Shown here in pieces: positions 24,490 to 40,154 of a DNA stretch of 64,000 bases (positions are counted from its first letter, which is position 1; every line of letters begins with the position of its first letter). The position numbers and the translations under genes were made by a program. This stretch comes from Chitinophagaceae bacterium DXS (lineage in GTDB: Bacteria; Bacteroidota; Bacteroidia; Chitinophagales; Chitinophagaceae), in assembly GCA_030345135.1 (NCBI GenBank), contig CP128386.1, forward strand, positions 103,216 to 167,215. The letters are read 5' to 3'. A model generated the notes under the pieces. The model searched no databases. It saw nothing but the letters and a program-made list of their open reading frames with translations, and was not told where the DNA came from.

Positions 24490-24941
24490 AGACCGTAAGA
24501 TAGTAAGACCGTAAGACCGTAAGACAGTAAGATCGTAAGACAGTAAGATGGTAAGACAGTAAGATGGTAAGACCGTGAGAGATAAGAAATGATGTGAGCG
24601 TAATAAAGAGAGGAAGAAGGCAAAAGAAGATTGGTGTTGGCGTAATTGAAACTTCTGTGGTGCTCTGTGCAAAACTCCTGTATTCTCTGTGGTTAAATAA
24701 GACCGTAAGACGTGTAAGACCGTAAGATGCGTAAGACAGTAGAACAGTAAGACAGTAAGTGGTGAGAAGGAGTGTAATTGTGCTGAAAAGAAAGTAAGAA
24801 GACTGAAAAGGAATGTTGTTGATACAGAATTGAAATTTCCGTGGCCCTCTGTGCAAAACTCCTGTATTCTCTGTGGTTTAAAAAAATTAATTATAGAAGC
24901 TGAAAGCTGATGGCTGACAGCTCATTGCTAAAACCCAATTC
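24490..24941. repeat. Two GTAAGACC arrays with CTCTGTGG words
   Basis: Octamer arrays lie at 24490-24577 and 24701-24761. A near-identical phrase with CTCTGTGCAAAACTCCTGTA follows each block (24656-24700 and 24838-24880), so the unit array-plus-phrase is duplicated. AGCTGAAAGCTGATGGCTGA then precedes the start at 24942. No gene or promoter is seen. Confidence 0.9.
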
Positions 24942-33419: not shown

Positions 33420-34874
33420 ATGACAAGGATTGCTGTAGCAAAGGGTGATGGTATTGGCCCGGAGATTATGGACGCAGTGCTAAAAATTTTTGACGCCGCA
33501 AAGGTTCCTCTGGCGTACGATTTTGTGGATATGGGAAAATGGGTATTTGACAAAGGCTACAGCAACGGTATGACGCCTGAAGCGCAACAAACAATTGAAA
33601 CGCTGGGCATTTTGTTTAAAGGTCCAATGGAAACCCCTAAAGGAAAAGGCGTAAAAAGCGTTAACGTTACTGCACGTAAAACCTGGAACACTTACGCTAA
33701 CAAAAGAACTTTCCAAACATTACATGGCGTTGATACCGTTTTCAGCAAAGCTGGAATTCCTATCGATATTACGGTTGTTCGTGAGAACATTGAAGATACA
33801 TATGGCGGAATTGAACATATGCTTACGCATGACGTTGCGTTGAGCCGCAGGTTCATTACCCGCCCCGGAAGTTTGCAGGTGATTAAGTATGCGTTTGAGA
33901 TGGCCAAGAAAAAAGGCGCAAGACGTATTACTTGCGGGCACAAGGCAAATATTATGAAAATTACTGATGGCTTGTTCCTGGAAGTATTTTATGAAGTGGC
34001 AAAAGGCTATCCGGAACTGAATGCTGACGATGTGATTGTGGATGACCTTTGCATGAAACTGGTTACTAAACCTGATCTGTTCGATGTGGTTGTGCTGACC
34101 AACCTGCAAGGCGATATAGTAAGTGACCTGTGTGCTGGTTTGGTTGGCGGACTTGGTTTCGCACCTTCTGCAAACATCGGAGACCATATCTGTATTTTTG
34201 AAGCTGTACACGGAACTGCTCCGGATATTGCGGGTAAGAATATTGCTAACCCAACCGCCTTATTGTTGAGTGGTATTGGTATGCTGCATCACCTTGGTTT
34301 GATGCAGAGCGCGGTAACAATTGAGAACGCATTGCTGTATACGTTGGAAAATGGCCAACATACAGGTGATTTTGGTGATAAATCAAAACCTTCTCTGAAC
34401 ACTACACAATTCGCAGAAGCCGTGATAGCAAACTTTGGTAAAACTCCTGCTCAGGGTGCGAAACCAATGTTGCAGGATATGCCTACAACCCAAACGCATT
34501 TCAAGCTGGAGAAAAACCCAATGCTTGAGTCTCATGATACATCCAACGAGAGAATTGTTGGTGTTGACTTCTTTATCGAAAGCAACGAGCAACCGACGAT
34601 CATCGCTAATAAATGCCTGAGACATGCGGGTGTTAAATTCAAACTGGTAAATATCAGCAACCGCGGTACACAGGTTTGGCCAACAGGTTCTGTTTACACT
34701 AACCTTGTAAACCAGTACAATGTTCGTTTTGAAAGCCTGGACGATCTGCCATTAACACAACAGGATGTGTTGGGCTTGTATATCAGCCTGAGCGGTAACT
34801 ACAAGATCTGTTCTTCAGAGTTGTTGCTGATGTTCGGTGAAAAAAGAGCATATAGTCTTGCCCAGGGACAATAA
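33420..34874 (+). CDS. icd: NADP-dependent isocitrate dehydrogenase, Thermus type
   Basis: A TCA-cycle enzyme that oxidatively decarboxylates isocitrate to 2-oxoglutarate, yielding NADPH. The 484 residues are longer than the E. coli enzyme because of the extra C-terminal domain typical of the Thermus/Bacteroidota type (here about 375-484, from HDTSNERIVGVDFFIES). Motifs present: GDGIGPE (9-15), substrate-binding segment SVNVTARKTWNTYANKR, VRENIEDTYGG, metal-binding LTNLQGDIVSDLCAGLVGG, and the nucleotide-binding EAVHGTAPDIAGKNIANPTA. It is a single gene with its own TACCTTTG box. It is unrelated to the export genes around it. Confidence 0.96.
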   Translation: MTRIAVAKGDGIGPEIMDAVLKIFDAAKVPLAYDFVDMGKWVFDKGYSNGMTPEAQQTIETLGILFKGPMETPKGKGVKSVNVTARKTWNTYANKRTFQTLHGVDTVFSKAGIPIDITVVRENIEDTYGGIEHMLTHDVALSRRFITRPGSLQVIKYAFEMAKKKGARRITCGHKANIMKITDGLFLEVFYEVAKGYPELNADDVIVDDLCMKLVTKPDLFDVVVLTNLQGDIVSDLCAGLVGGLGFAPSANIGDHICIFEAVHGTAPDIAGKNIANPTALLLSGIGMLHHLGLMQSAVTIENALLYTLENGQHTGDFGDKSKPSLNTTQFAEAVIANFGKTPAQGAKPMLQDMPTTQTHFKLEKNPMLESHDTSNERIVGVDFFIESNEQPTIIANKCLRHAGVKFKLVNISNRGTQVWPTGSVYTNLVNQYNVRFESLDDLPLTQQDVLGLYISLSGNYKICSSELLLMFGEKRAYSLAQGQ

Positions 34875-34901
34875 TCTTAACAGCATAATTAATAGCGGTG
34901 C

Positions 34902-34909
34902 TATATTTG
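34902..34909 (+). promoter_or_regulatory. Minus-7 box for a downstream small transcript
   Basis: TATATTTG matches TANNTTTG and is followed by CACTCCC. There is no annotated gene on this strand until after a terminator at 35099, so it should drive a short transcript of about 215 nt. Confidence 0.5.
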
Positions 34910-34944
34910 CACTCCCTGAGAAAGCTGGATAAGATAAACATATT

Positions 34945-35028
34945 ATGTATCCTATAAAACCTGCTAAATCTTATGTCCGTAGTTGCAAACATGATTTGCA
35001 TGCGACAATGAGCGAAGAGCCGGCATAG
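34945..35028 (+). other. Possible 27-residue small ORF
   Basis: ATG at 34945 opens a frame reading MYPIKPAKSYVRSCKHDLHA and ending TAG at 35026-35028, about 30 nt after the predicted transcription start. It may encode a small protein, or be a chance ORF in a small RNA. No recognised family. Confidence 0.25.
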
Positions 35029-35064
35029 GATCTGATATCCGGACCACTATGATCCTTTTATCTG

Positions 35065-35122
35065 TGAATAATCATATATTCCCCACTTAAAATAACCGAA
35101 GGCCATCTTTTATGATGGCCTT
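35065..35122. repeat. Direct repeat flanking the sulfatase gene, left copy
   Basis: The 46 bp 35077-35122 are identical to 37769-37814; extended to 35065 there are only two mismatches in 58 bp. The repeat ends in the terminator hairpin. It brackets 2.65 kb containing only the arylsulfatase gene. Confidence 0.95.
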
Positions 35123-35129
35123 TCTTTTG
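35099..35129 (+). terminator. Rho-independent terminator of the small transcript
   Basis: AAGGCCATC-TTTTAT-GATGGCCTT, a perfect 9-bp stem, is followed by TCTTTTG on the plus strand. Confidence 0.8.
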
Positions 35130-35260
35130 TACACCATGTATGGCATTGATCTGTGAAGCTTTAAAGTAGATGTGGTTTTGGTTGTGGCCGGTAAAACGAG
35201 CAATACACAGCCAGCACCGGTATAGAAAGCGAAATGCATTGATTACGGGTGATATATCGG

Positions 35261-37579
35261 TCATTTAAGATCAACTTCAACTTTATTAATGGTTCCGTTG
35301 AATTTAAATGGAGGTTTGTATGCCGGAGTTACCGGCTGGCCGCTGTCTTCTCCTATTCCAAATGTATCAACACCAAAACGGGCAAACACAGTTGCTTTCA
35401 TTTTGCCTTGTGCTACACTTTTACCGTTAACTTTCAGATTCAATTGAGCGCCCTTGCCCATCCCGCCTCCGTCATAGTTAAAATCTAATTCAACAGTTGC
35501 ATTGCCGGGAACAATTACGCTGGCTGCTTTCAAAACAGTATGTGAGCCATAATAGTTATAGTCAAATACTGGAACACCGTTTTTTAGATACAAAGTTACT
35601 CCCGACGAAACGCCACCAGCAGCGAGGATTACACCATTTGTGCCAGCCCCTTTAGTCTTAATATCTGCAGTGATCGACCAACTTCGGTTTTTAATTGATG
35701 GCGATGCTGTTTCTGGCAGTCTTGTAGCTCCTGCGTAGTAAACAAAATGCGTTGCTGCCGGATCAAACCCGGGCGGTGGGGGCTTGGGCACCAAAGCTCT
35801 GGCAACACCTCTGTCATCAAGTGGGTATACATGATAATTCTCGGCAGCAGCGTCAAATTTCTTTTTCATTTCTTCAAGCTTTTCCGGCATTTGTGCCGCA
35901 AGGTCATTTGCTTCCGAAAAGTCTTTGTCAAGATTGTATAGCTCCCATTTATCACTATCCCAGTTACCGGGAGCAAGATCCTGACGCCAGGGTAATGTAT
36001 GTTGTGCATCTGCTTTCCAGCCATCTGCATAGATTGACCGGTTGCTTAAAATTTCGAAATACTGTTCAGATCTACCCGCATATGAAGGATCTGTAAAACT
36101 TGCCAAAAAAGATTTGCCTGCAAGTGGCAGTTGTTTAATGCCACTTACATAGTCCGGCATTGTTACATGAGCCGCCTCATAAACGGTTGGAGCAATATCG
36201 ACAAGATGCAAAAATGGCTCTCTGCATTTGTCGTCGTGTTTTATTTTTGCAGGCCAGCTAATCACCATTGGATTACGGGAACCGCCCAGGTGTGAGGCAA
36301 CTTGTTTAACCCATTGAAAGGGTGTATTCCCCGCCCAGGCCCAGCCTACAGGATAATGAGGTTCTGTTTCGGGCCCGCCCAACTTGTCTATGTCTTTAAG
36401 AATGTCGTCTATACTTGCATTCATTCCCGCGAGATTTTTGATTTCATCGAGTGTGCCGTCCGGGCCTCCTTCCGAAGAAGCGCCATTGTCTCCAACAATG
36501 AATATTACGAGTGTGTTATCTGCGTCGGGTAATTTTTTTATTGCATCAAGTAAACGGCCAACCTCATGATCTGTAAAAGCGAAGTATCCGGCATAATTTT
36601 CAAAGAGAGCATTATAGACTTTCTTTTGTTTGTCATTTAAACTATCCCATGCAGGAACCCATTCTGGACGTGGTGTTAGTTTTGTATCAGATGGAATAAT
36701 ACCCATTCGCTTCTGATTTTCAAAGACAATTTCCCTGTATTTTTCCCAGCCCATATCGAATTTTCCCTTGAACTTATCACGCCATTCCTTAGTCACGTGA
36801 TGTGGCGCGTGCATGGCCCCGGGTGCGAAGTACATGAAGAACGGTTTATTTGGAGAAACAGACTTGGAGTATTGCATCCGGGCTATTGCGCGGTCGGTCA
36901 TATCAGTCAACAAATGGTAGCCTTGCTGTGGAGATTTATTTGGTTCGACAGGAGTTGTATTTTCAAAAATTACCGGATAATACTGGTGGGCTTCACCAGC
37001 GTTAAATCCATAGAAATAGTCAAATCCCATGCCTGTTGGCCAGCGATCAAACGGACCAGCTACACTGGTTTCCCAATCGGGAGTGTTGTGATTTTTTCCA
37101 AACCACCAGGTTGAATAGCCATTGTCCCGCAATACCTCGCCCATTGTTGCAGTGGTCCGCGGGATCATCGTTGTATAGCTCGGAAAGCCTGTCGCCCATT
37201 CCATTAGAAAACCATTACCTGCATCGTGATGATTTCTTCCGGTTAACAACGCCGCCCGCGATGGACCGCAAATCGCTGTAGTATGAAAACGGTTATACTT
37301 CAGACCTTCAGATGCAAGCTTATCAAGATTGGGAGTTGGGATCAACCCTCCGAAAGTTGAAGTCTGGCCGAATCCAACATCATCAAGTAAAATGATCACG
37401 ATATTAGGAGCATCTTTAGCTGCTGTTGGAATTTCAGGCCATGCAGGTGTGGACTCTTTGTATGTTTTGCCAATTTTGCCCTGGAAAGGAGGCTCTGGCT
37501 TGGGAAGACTATTTTGTGCATAACTCCAGGCTGTGAAGCAAAAGAAAATAGCAGGCAAGAATCTTTGAACTGTGGTCAT
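35261..37579 (-). CDS. Secreted arylsulfatase (formylglycine-dependent, family S1)
   Basis: A 772-residue sulfatase with a cleavable signal peptide ([17 protein letters not shown]), acting in the periplasm or outside the cell on sulfate esters. Metal ligands in [13 protein letters not shown] (D66, D67), the modification motif C104-G-P-S-R in [15 protein letters not shown] (Cys to be converted to formylglycine), and [10 protein letters not shown] are present. The last 150 residues form a beta-sandwich-like domain (from [13 protein letters not shown]). The length is greater than in small sulfatases and close to the 770-residue Pseudomonas-type proteins with PEPPF near the start. A maturase gene is not in the window. 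It is monocistronic, opposite to icd, and lies between two copies of a 46-bp repeat. Confidence 0.94.
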
Positions 37580-37939
37580 ATTTTCCCTTTTTGTTAATTG
37601 TGATAGTCTAATTCAAAACAGTTTGTAGTTGAAATAGTTCACTTAAGGGAGCTTATCGGGAAGCTTTTGAATGCCTGTTTCTTTTGCAATAATGAAATAA
37701 AATGTCACCTAATGCTGGCGATACTGTTTACAAATCCAATCTTTCTTGAGTATTATTGAATGATCATTTATTCCCCACTTAAAATAACCGAAGGCCATCT
37801 TTTATGATGGCCTTCTTCGTTGGTTGCGTTCAATATGTATTTGCTTAAATTAACCCGCTTATATCTTTAGATTTTGAGAACATTGTTGTCGCCAGACAGT
37901 AAAGCTGATAGCTAATAGCTGACAGCTGACAGCTATTAG
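37580..37939. other. Gap upstream of the sulfatase and downstream of TolC
   Basis: It holds the right copy of the direct repeat (37757-37814) and AGCTGATAGCTAATAGCTGA words (37903-37940) abutting the TolC stop. No gene is seen, and no sulfatase promoter was recognised on the minus strand. Confidence 0.6.
37757..37814. repeat. Direct repeat flanking the sulfatase gene, right copy
   Basis: Matches 35065-35122 with two mismatches (46 identical bases at the right). It includes the same 9-bp hairpin (37791-37814), followed here by CTTCGTTGG, so it lacks the T-rich tail of the left copy. Confidence 0.95.
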
Positions 37940-39370
37940 CTACCACAGCGGTCTTCCCTGGTAATAATCCAATATTTTGGTACGCAACACAAAATCATAA
38001 CGCGCAACAATCAGGTTTACGTTGGATCTGTCGAAGTTGTTTTTTGCAACAAGATAATCTACAGAGTTAATCGCACCGGCATTGAACCTCACTTCAGCAA
38101 TTCTGAAGGATTCTTTATACGCATCTACCTGTTCAGACAGGGCTTTATATCTTTTCTCTGCAGAAGTCATGTTAACATAAGCCTGCTCAACATTTTGCTG
38201 TAACTGCGTACGGGTTGATGAAGCAACTACTTCCGCGTCTTTCTGCTGGATCTTTGCAACACGGATCTTCGTTCTTGTTTGAAAAGCATTCAGGATGGGA
38301 ATTCTTAAGCCAAGAGAGAAATAAGTGTTCCTGTTATTTTTAAACTGATCACCAAATGGGATTTTGTGACTTGCATAATCATTTTGCGGATCCCATACCG
38401 GAACTTTGGTGCCGTTAGCTTCAACATAAGATCCATTGTCGACATAGGTTGTATTGATTAACTCCTGTGTTGTAGCCGCAGTGGAGTAGTTAGATCCTAT
38501 TCCTCCGCTAAGCACAAGAGCAGGATATTGCTGTCCCTTTGCCACCTTAACGCCATATACTGCGCTTTTTTGTCTCAGGTCCACGGCTTTGATAATTGCA
38601 AGGTTTGCTGCAGCTGTTTTGTAAATGTTTTCGGTGCTGCTGTCATACACAAAGTTGATCTGATCCAATGTTAAGCGCTCAACATCTATATCCTTTGAGT
38701 AATTAACATTGAGCAGTTGAGCAAGGCTCAGGCGTGCACTTTCCATGTTATTCATGTTGTTTACCACGCTAACATTATCGTTGGCAAGCTGTCCTTTCAA
38801 GTCATACAGATCACTTGGTGTGATAGCGCCATCTTTATTTAAAATATCAAGACGCTCAACTTGCTTTTTCGAAACTTCTACCTGGTTTTTCGAAACCTCA
38901 AGCAAGTCTTCATTGCTAAGTAAAGTAAGGTAAGCCAGAATAACATTCAACGTCACATTGTCTTTCTTCTGTTGTTGTTCCATGCCAGATGCTTCAAATG
39001 CCGTACGGTTTTGCTTTATGTTATTCTGGATACTTAAACCGTTAAAAAGGGTGAGGTTACTGGAAAGGCTATAGTTGCCTACGTTAATGTTCTGATCAAT
39101 ATAAGTGTTTGTATAAGGGTTAATATTTCTACCCTGGTTGGCACCCTGGGAAAGATTTGCATTCAGGTCAGGTAACAAATTTGCACGTGCCTGCTGCCAG
39201 TAAGCTTTCGCACTTTCCGTTTGCAGGGTTGCACGTTGTACGTCAAGGTTGTTTTTTATTGCTAATTGAATGCATTCCTTCAAAGACATTTTTGTTGATG
39301 TCTGAGCAAATGAAATTCCTGCAACAGCCATACAGGAAACCGAGAGTACTATTTTCTTGAGAGCGTTCAT
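37940..39370 (-). CDS. TolC-family outer-membrane efflux channel
   Basis: A 476-residue outer-membrane factor that forms the trimeric exit duct of efflux systems. The signal peptide KKIVLSVSCMAVAGISFAQ is followed by two OEP repeats with long helices (SLKECIQLAIKNNLDVQRA; ESARLSLAQLLNVNYS; EVRFNAGAINSVDYLVAKNN). I start it at MNALKKIV (39370), where the signal peptide begins; upstream codons would be polar. The ATPase gene ends 112 bp upstream on the same strand, so they are probably co-transcribed from the sigma-54-like promoter at 40173. It is the only TolC in the window and is the likely partner of the adaptor at 13774. Confidence 0.94.
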   Translation of the reverse strand: MNALKKIVLSVSCMAVAGISFAQTSTKMSLKECIQLAIKNNLDVQRATLQTESAKAYWQQARANLLPDLNANLSQGANQGRNINPYTNTYIDQNINVGNYSLSSNLTLFNGLSIQNNIKQNRTAFEASGMEQQQKKDNVTLNVILAYLTLLSNEDLLEVSKNQVEVSKKQVERLDILNKDGAITPSDLYDLKGQLANDNVSVVNNMNNMESARLSLAQLLNVNYSKDIDVERLTLDQINFVYDSSTENIYKTAAANLAIIKAVDLRQKSAVYGVKVAKGQQYPALVLSGGIGSNYSTAATTQELINTTYVDNGSYVEANGTKVPVWDPQNDYASHKIPFGDQFKNNRNTYFSLGLRIPILNAFQTRTKIRVAKIQQKDAEVVASSTRTQLQQNVEQAYVNMTSAEKRYKALSEQVDAYKESFRIAEVRFNAGAINSVDYLVAKNNFDRSNVNLIVARYDFVLRTKILDYYQGRPLW

Positions 39371-39482: not shown

Positions 39483-40154
39483 CTAAGCAACCTTTCCGTC
39501 AAGCAGATTAATTATACGGGAACCATATTCAGCATTCTTTTCCGAGTGTGTAACCTGTATTATGGTTACTTTATCTTCCTCGTTTAATTTTTTAAAGAGT
39601 TCCATTATTTCAATGCCCTGTTTGGAGTTGAGATTGCCGGTAGGTTCATCAGCCAGAATTAGTTTCGGCTTAGCCACCAGCGCCCTGGCAATGCCAACCA
39701 GTTGCTGTTGTCCGCCCGAAAGTTGTGTAGGGAAAAGATCCTTCTTGCCAACAATATTAAACCTGTCAAGAATATCTGCAACCACCGCCTTGCGTTCAGC
39801 AGTTTTCATGTTTTGATAGATCAGTGGCGTTTCAATATTTTCATATACAGTCAGTTCATCTATCAGGTGATAAGCCTGGAAAACAAAACCGATATATTGC
39901 TTATATAACTGTGATCTGTGTTTTTCCTTAAGGTTGTGAACTGCTTCACCCATAAAGTAATGATATCCTTCAGATGGTTCATCCAGCATCCCGAGAATGT
40001 TCAGCAAGGTAGATTTGCCTGATCCGGAAGGCCCCATAATTGAAACAAATTCACCTTCGTCAATGTCCAGGTTAATTCCATTAAGGATAAGTGTCTTAGC
40101 TCCGCCAACGTTTACGGCCTTTGAAATATTCTTAAGTTCGATCATATTGGTCAT
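39483..40154 (-). CDS. ABC transporter ATPase (MacB/LolD type), second copy
   Basis: A 223-residue ATPase with Walker A GPSGSGKST (41-49), Q-loop VFQAYHLI, Walker B LILADEPTGNLNS and switch H in IQVTHSEKNA. The signature region reads LSGGQQQLVGIARAL, where the family and the ATPase at 15557 have QQQRVAVARA or QQQRVAIARA: the Arg after QQQ is Leu and the following Ala is Gly. The core LSGGQ is intact, so activity is likely. It precedes TolC in one operon and should energise permeases encoded elsewhere, such as those at 42309, 46594 and 49414. The start could also be the ATG three codons later. Confidence 0.93.
   Translation of the reverse strand: MTNMIELKNISKAVNVGGAKTLILNGINLDIDEGEFVSIMGPSGSGKSTLLNILGMLDEPSEGYHYFMGEAVHNLKEKHRSQLYKQYIGFVFQAYHLIDELTVYENIETPLIYQNMKTAERKAVVADILDRFNIVGKKDLFPTQLSGGQQQLVGIARALVAKPKLILADEPTGNLNSKQGIEIMELFKKLNEEDKVTIIQVTHSEKNAEYGSRIINLLDGKVA

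Follow-up and report, generated by a model that had tools for sequence, protein, structure and literature searches.

Genomic islands at the 3′ ends of tRNA, tmRNA and small RNA genes carry a direct repeat at the 3′ end of the transcript. A different kind of event, the "insertion with long target duplication", goes back to Nobusato et al. 2000 (Gene), as described in extracts of PMC3031569, PMC1643837 and PMC4978471. According to these extracts, such insertions were described from two H. pylori strains, the duplication is present only in the insert-bearing genome, and the insertions are frequently linked to restriction-modification genes. Cis-mobilizable elements (CIMEs) are derived from decayed ICEs or IMEs, according to an extract of PMC5704250. 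An extract of PMC7326022 deals with a phage located at a serine tRNA, not with terminators as sites.

We analyzed a stretch of 64,000 nucleotides from Chitinophagaceae bacterium DXS (the window), in which a sulfatase gene lies between two copies of a direct repeat in the gap separating icd from a tolC-like gene. Judged by the extracts cited above, this locus most resembles an insertion with long target duplication, and two defining features of that class were found here. Specifically, the sulfatase is absent from the same locus in three genomes of relatives (G113, G184 and G059), and the insert is flanked by a long direct repeat (tens of base pairs or more) that is unique to it. The likeness consists in a gene missing at the relative's site, a repeat longer than the usual target duplication of a transposon and the lack of a recombinase inside the insert. 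The two differ in cargo, which here is a sulfatase and not a restriction-modification system, and in that the empty site is known here by gene order. If the sulfatase were instead an islet that lacks its integrase, the nearest class, going by the same extract, would be CIMEs. These resemble our locus in their attL/attR-like direct repeats and in that no integration or transfer genes are found among the large open reading frames (ORFs) here, but we saw no trace of an ICE or IME and no recognized att site. Islands at RNA 3′ ends likewise show a direct repeat at a transcript 3′ end that is left intact, whereas no RNA gene was found at our locus, where the repeated sequence is a predicted terminator with protein genes converging on it. 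A sulfatase insertion flanked by terminators is not described in the extracts on such insertions and on CIMEs, a statement of narrow scope. Overall, we regard the locus as a modest instance of a type of gene insertion already known; it does not look like a new mobile element.

The sulfatase gene and its flanking repeat

The left neighbor, icd, encodes an isocitrate dehydrogenase of 484 aa (33420-34874, plus strand, PF00180) and reads towards the left repeat copy (35065-35122) across a 190-bp spacer (34875-35064). From the other side, a gene for a TolC-like outer-membrane efflux protein (37940-39370, minus strand, PF02321), adjoined by an ABC transporter ATPase gene (39483-40154, minus strand), reads towards the right copy (37757-37814). 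Between the two copies lies the sulfatase gene (35261-37579, minus strand), encoding 772 aa with a PF00884 match (E 5.6e-60) and with Cys104 in a CxPSR-type motif, which we take to be the formylglycine motif. The initial annotation had placed a single sulfatase gene between the repeats, and this is indeed the one large ORF there; the others are mechanical calls of at most 114 aa, mostly overlapping the sulfatase. In the PDB, the best sequence match is 7all, followed by 1hdh. The protein has the PF00884 domain and the CxPSR-type motif in common with these arylsulfatases and differs from them in that about 180 C-terminal residues extend past the best matches. Its gene shows little sign of foreign origin in composition: among 162 long ORFs its codon distance is at the 77th percentile, its GC3 at the 12th and its total GC (0.449) at the 91st.

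An exact 46-bp duplication had been reported at the two ends of the gene, and we recovered it (35077-35122 and 37769-37814) as the core of a longer repeat of 58 bp, in which 56 of 58 positions are identical (97%). The check for further copies proposed in the initial annotation was run on the whole 7,287,640-base genome: with up to three mismatches allowed, the 46-mer has two forward and no reverse matches, both at the ends of the sulfatase, and the reversed control has none. When the 81 bases around the repeat were compared with the genome using BLAST, 17 matches appeared at E ≤ 10. Only these two copies had E below 0.1, and the next-best partial matches stood at 0.15 or worse. A repeat with only two copies in a 7.29-Mb genome rules out a dispersed terminator repeat. 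Beyond this genome, a 27-mer from the repeat had no match in IMG/VR, the 58-bp repeat gave only 13-bp BLAST matches against 150 loci from other genomes (1.34 Mb), and neither repeat nor spacers found anything beyond 13-18-bp matches in the loci of relatives.

A genome-wide search for tyrosine-type recombinases (PF00589) gave seven matches; assuming a circular contig, roughly 220 kb separate the cassette from the closest one. The claim that no integrase is present is borne out for recombinases of this type. A transposon or IS insertion was considered and rejected, given that the sulfatase is alone among the large ORFs inside and that the repeat measures 58 bp; no terminal inverted repeat was listed besides the palindromic hairpins themselves.

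The 58-bp repeat contains a predicted terminator, situated between convergent protein genes. Each copy holds a hairpin of 9-10 pairs. In a terminator scan, the one in the left copy (35098-35123) passes on both strands, and the one in the right copy (37790-37815) passes on the minus strand only, that is, facing tolC. The left copy lies beyond the 3′ ends of icd and of the sulfatase. The right copy had been described as following unrelated DNA, which is incorrect: it lies on the 3′ side of tolC, which runs towards it on the minus strand and has its stop about 125 bp away. Read along the minus strand, tolC is now followed by a terminator, the sulfatase and a second terminator, and icd enters the left copy from the opposite side, so that all three genes end at a predicted terminator. 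Separate from the 58-bp repeat, a palindromic hairpin at the tolC stop (37901-37945) is of the AGCTAATAGCTGACAGCT type, which is dispersed genome-wide in dozens of scattered copies.

The initial annotation had read the 190-bp spacer as a promoter-bearing small transcript, with the cassette integrated at the 3′ end of this RNA gene. ARAGORN found no tRNA or tmRNA in the window and no Rfam family reached its gathering score there, and a tRNA, tmRNA or other known RNA as attachment gene is rejected on these grounds. Nowhere else in the genome does the spacer recur, and in the 150 loci from other genomes its best match, of 16 bp, is not convincing. Its fold together with the terminator has a z-score of -2.96 against shuffled sequences. 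Without the terminator the value is -1.29, with 16 of 200 shuffles folding as well; given a fold that hardly beats its shuffles, we rejected the idea that the spacer encodes a structured small RNA. Evidence for the promoter comes down to a single TAnnTTTG box at 34902; counting both strands, the window contains 28 such motifs. With these results, and with the right copy placed after minus-strand tolC, the idea that the cassette entered an RNA gene at its 3′ end is not supported, and what stands of the original island reading is the insertion of the sulfatase. The left segment could still conceivably contain an undescribed small RNA.

The icd-tolC site in relatives and the distribution of the sulfatase

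Our family sample comprised 294 genomes, our own included, which is the sole representative of the host genus. At E ≤ 1e-100, 198 of them had a match for icd, 93 for the tolC-like gene and 37 for the sulfatase. Adjacency was found by comparing the places of icd and tolC among the matches listed, so that more cases are possible; in at least three genomes from two other genera (Filimonas and Deminuibacter), icd and tolC converge directly and no sulfatase separates them. The gap between the coding matches, stop codons included, is 10 bp in G113 and G184, which belong to one genus, and 47 bp in G059. In all three the ABC ATPase gene comes after tolC, so the pair that follows our cassette there adjoins icd. 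Because this order of icd, tolC and ABC ATPase is common to the relatives, it is probable that the adjacency is ancient and that the sulfatase came in later. Together with a repeat confined to the two ends of the gene, the sulfatase-free arrangement in at least three genomes makes the insertion of the sulfatase, as originally claimed, well supported.

The adjacency is far from universal in the family. None of the first 20 icd regions had tolC nearby, tolC was beside icd in 3 of 11 further regions, and G015, from the genus of G113 and G184, has no tolC within 7.7 kb downstream of icd. A scan of genome contigs returned 39 loci, two of them with icd beside tolC, from Filimonas zeae and Deminuibacter soli (L130 and L133); these are G184 and G059 and not extra cases. 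The closest tolC (68%) belongs to Foetidibacter luteolus, which has no icd within the fetched flanks, and a larger sample of 394 genomes, with tolC in 16 (E ≤ 1e-150), added no new icd adjacency among the loci checked.

In G059, one hairpin, a predicted shared terminator, lies between icd and tolC. Its stem (AAGGCCGTC/GACGGCCTT) and the stem at our locus (AAGGCCATC/GATGGCCTT) differ in one compensated pair. Hairpins of the form AAGGCC...GGCCTT occur at 26 places in G059 versus 7 for the control, and at 21 versus 29 in our genome. As this stem type is recurrent in G059 and the 150 loci contain no homologous 58-bp repeat, the G059 hairpin could at best possibly be the same terminator, the likeness being weak and the sequences too diverged. 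The genera compared do not share conserved terminators, and in the 150 loci from other genomes we found no relative with one copy of the same 58-bp repeat at the empty site. After subtraction of the cassette and one repeat copy, the gap in our genome measures about 373 bp versus 10-47 bp in the relatives, indicating that further changes took place.

The sulfatase itself is patchily distributed in the family, as the 37 of 294 genomes (our own among them) show. Its best other family member (L116) is 62% identical and the remaining matches listed reach at most 51%. Sulfatase identity does not track icd identity across family genomes; in G057, for example, icd is 91% identical, yet the best listed sulfatase match is 46%. 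On plasmids, 599 records match the sulfatase and 72 cover at least 80% of it, the best among the matches listed being about 50% identical, and these relatives at about 50% sit on plasmids of other phyla. The modest identity of the family members, their discordance with icd and the plasmid relatives together suggest that the sulfatase was gained horizontally at some time. No close plasmid source was seen at the identity just given. A close viral or phage source was also dismissed: 13 stretches fit a pattern and none encodes a relative, and none of the 25 phage records matching the sulfatase covers 80% of the query. Direct repeats around other sulfatases were sought in L034-L062, using the 28 loci with a length of 4 kb or more (L040 was too short and was left out, and some flanks end at contig ends); a match of at least 18 bp occurred in one of them, an 18-mer in L055.

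Repeats and a tRNA-Ala islet in the same genome

Our census of background repeats covers 2.0 of the 7.29 Mb, and its ORF masks are mechanical, so "intergenic" is approximate. Exact intergenic repeats of at least 36 bp spaced 40-600 bp apart occur at 34 loci (70 pairs), the union of two spacing classes (17 and 24); one terminator-like case is among them. At a spacing of 1.5-12 kb there are only four exact pairs of this length: the sulfatase cassette, an islet at a tRNA-Ala gene and two pairs inside one array at 929-932 kb. A looser census kept two- or low-copy intergenic repeats of at least 40 bp and at least 85% identity, 600-12,000 bp apart, and left out higher-copy pairs, among them 866483/867619. 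Seven rows were retained, comprising the sulfatase cassette, the tRNA-Ala islet, three from the 929-932 kb array, a pair at 885921/891194 with 85% identity and a palindromic pair at 1648646/1656640.

Several individual repeats were recorded along the way. Two copies of a 48-bp segment, with a terminator-like hairpin of 13 pairs, lie 154 bp apart (1107817-1107864 and 1107971-1108018 of the genome). Arrays of related CGCAAAGTC-type repeats (20-300 bp) occupy 928814-931933 (L214) and 432721-435832 (L189), and at 433-436 kb the array copies lie on either side of a single 608-aa ORF. At 866483-867670, an ORF of 278 aa (866672-867508) sits between 52-bp direct repeats of 90% identity, which belong to a low-copy dispersed family found at six places in 2.0 Mb. 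Within the window, a TAAGACCGTAAGACAGTAAGAT-type repeat is present at 24512 and 33023 (genome 127727 and 136238), its central 24-mer having three copies in 1.2 Mb.

The tRNA-Ala(ggc) islet spans 5.9 kb (1290983-1296943 of the genome; L232:10983-16943). The 49 bp at the 3′ end of the tRNA, reaching one base past the gene, are repeated exactly 5.9 kb downstream, and a 40-bp part of this repeat has only two copies in the genome. The islet encodes an AraC regulator, an alpha-L-fucosidase, an L-rhamnose-mutarotase-type protein and a GH43 protein; none of the four ORFs scanned is an integrase, and PF00589 has no match in the islet. Of 12 tRNA genes compared with the DNA downstream, one has a match of more than 20 bp. 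A comparison of cassette and islet at their interior ends (about 260-275 bp each) turned up no exact word of 11 bp or longer common to both; the only 11-mer that the two have in common pairs an interior end of one with the outside flank of the other. A recognized attachment gene is present at the islet only, not at the sulfatase cassette.

Possible routes of insertion

The explanation that we prefer is that the sulfatase entered the icd/tolC gap by a recombinase-independent insertion in which the terminator, as the target, was duplicated; we put its probability at about one half, the recombination step being what we infer. In the ancestor, icd and tolC would have been convergent, probably on a common terminator. 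The sulfatase gene would later have been inserted in the gap in the orientation of tolC, leaving a terminator segment of about 58 bp on both sides of it. A single step would suffice, as in an insertion with long target duplication; alternatively, there may have been two steps, first a local duplication of the terminator and then insertion between the copies. Since short-range duplications are frequent in the genome, a route free of recombinases is plausible, and we rank it first among the mechanisms. If the hairpins terminate transcription in the cell, as predicted, both copies may have been retained through having a terminator on each side.

The tRNA-Ala islet demonstrates that cassettes with an exact attachment-type repeat and no integrase found exist in this genome, which makes a trans-mobilized cassette a real rival. 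A sulfatase circle would then have integrated at the terminator through a trans-acting or since-lost recombinase, and the repeats would be attL and attR, as in a CIME. Cassette and islet are alike in repeat length (46 and 49) and in their glycan-active cargo; however, no RNA gene was found at the sulfatase cassette, its interior ends have no word of 11 bp or more in common with those of the islet, the nearest PF00589 gene is about 220 kb away, and no third copy of the repeat lies beside a PF00589 gene. We consider this route unlikely, though it heads the alternatives. Close behind it in order, and improbable too, comes homologous recombination of the Campbell or double type with a related donor that already had the sulfatase by the same terminator, whereby the repeat would represent common homology and not a target duplication. 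A stretch of 58 bp with 46 exact may suffice as homology for recombination, and the codon usage of the sulfatase is near that of the host, as expected of a related donor, but this route leaves the arrangement still to be explained, now in another genome, and such a donor arrangement was not seen, the best sulfatase relative (L116) having no match to the repeat.

A broader proposal is more doubtful than either of these, namely that the sulfatase cassette and the fucosidase/GH43 islet may represent one type of small glycan-catabolism cassette that lacks an integrase, is bounded by attachment repeats of 46-49 bp and is mobilized in trans into the 3′ ends of transcripts. Finally, the repeat could be a coincidental or dispersed terminator repeat irrelevant to the sulfatase, in keeping with the many intergenic repeats of this genome and with the repeat-flanked ORF at 866672-867508 (52 bp, 90%), but the restriction of its two genome-wide copies to the ends of the sulfatase nearly refutes this, and we hold it to be very improbable.

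The locus is a clean, small case of a single metabolic gene entering a packed chromosome without cutting its neighbors: the sulfatase sits between convergent genes, and every gene end retains a predicted terminator. If both cassettes have one mechanism, trans-mobilized catabolic cassettes would be indicated in Bacteroidota; if their mechanisms differ, the sulfatase would be one more target-duplication insertion, outside restriction-modification genes.
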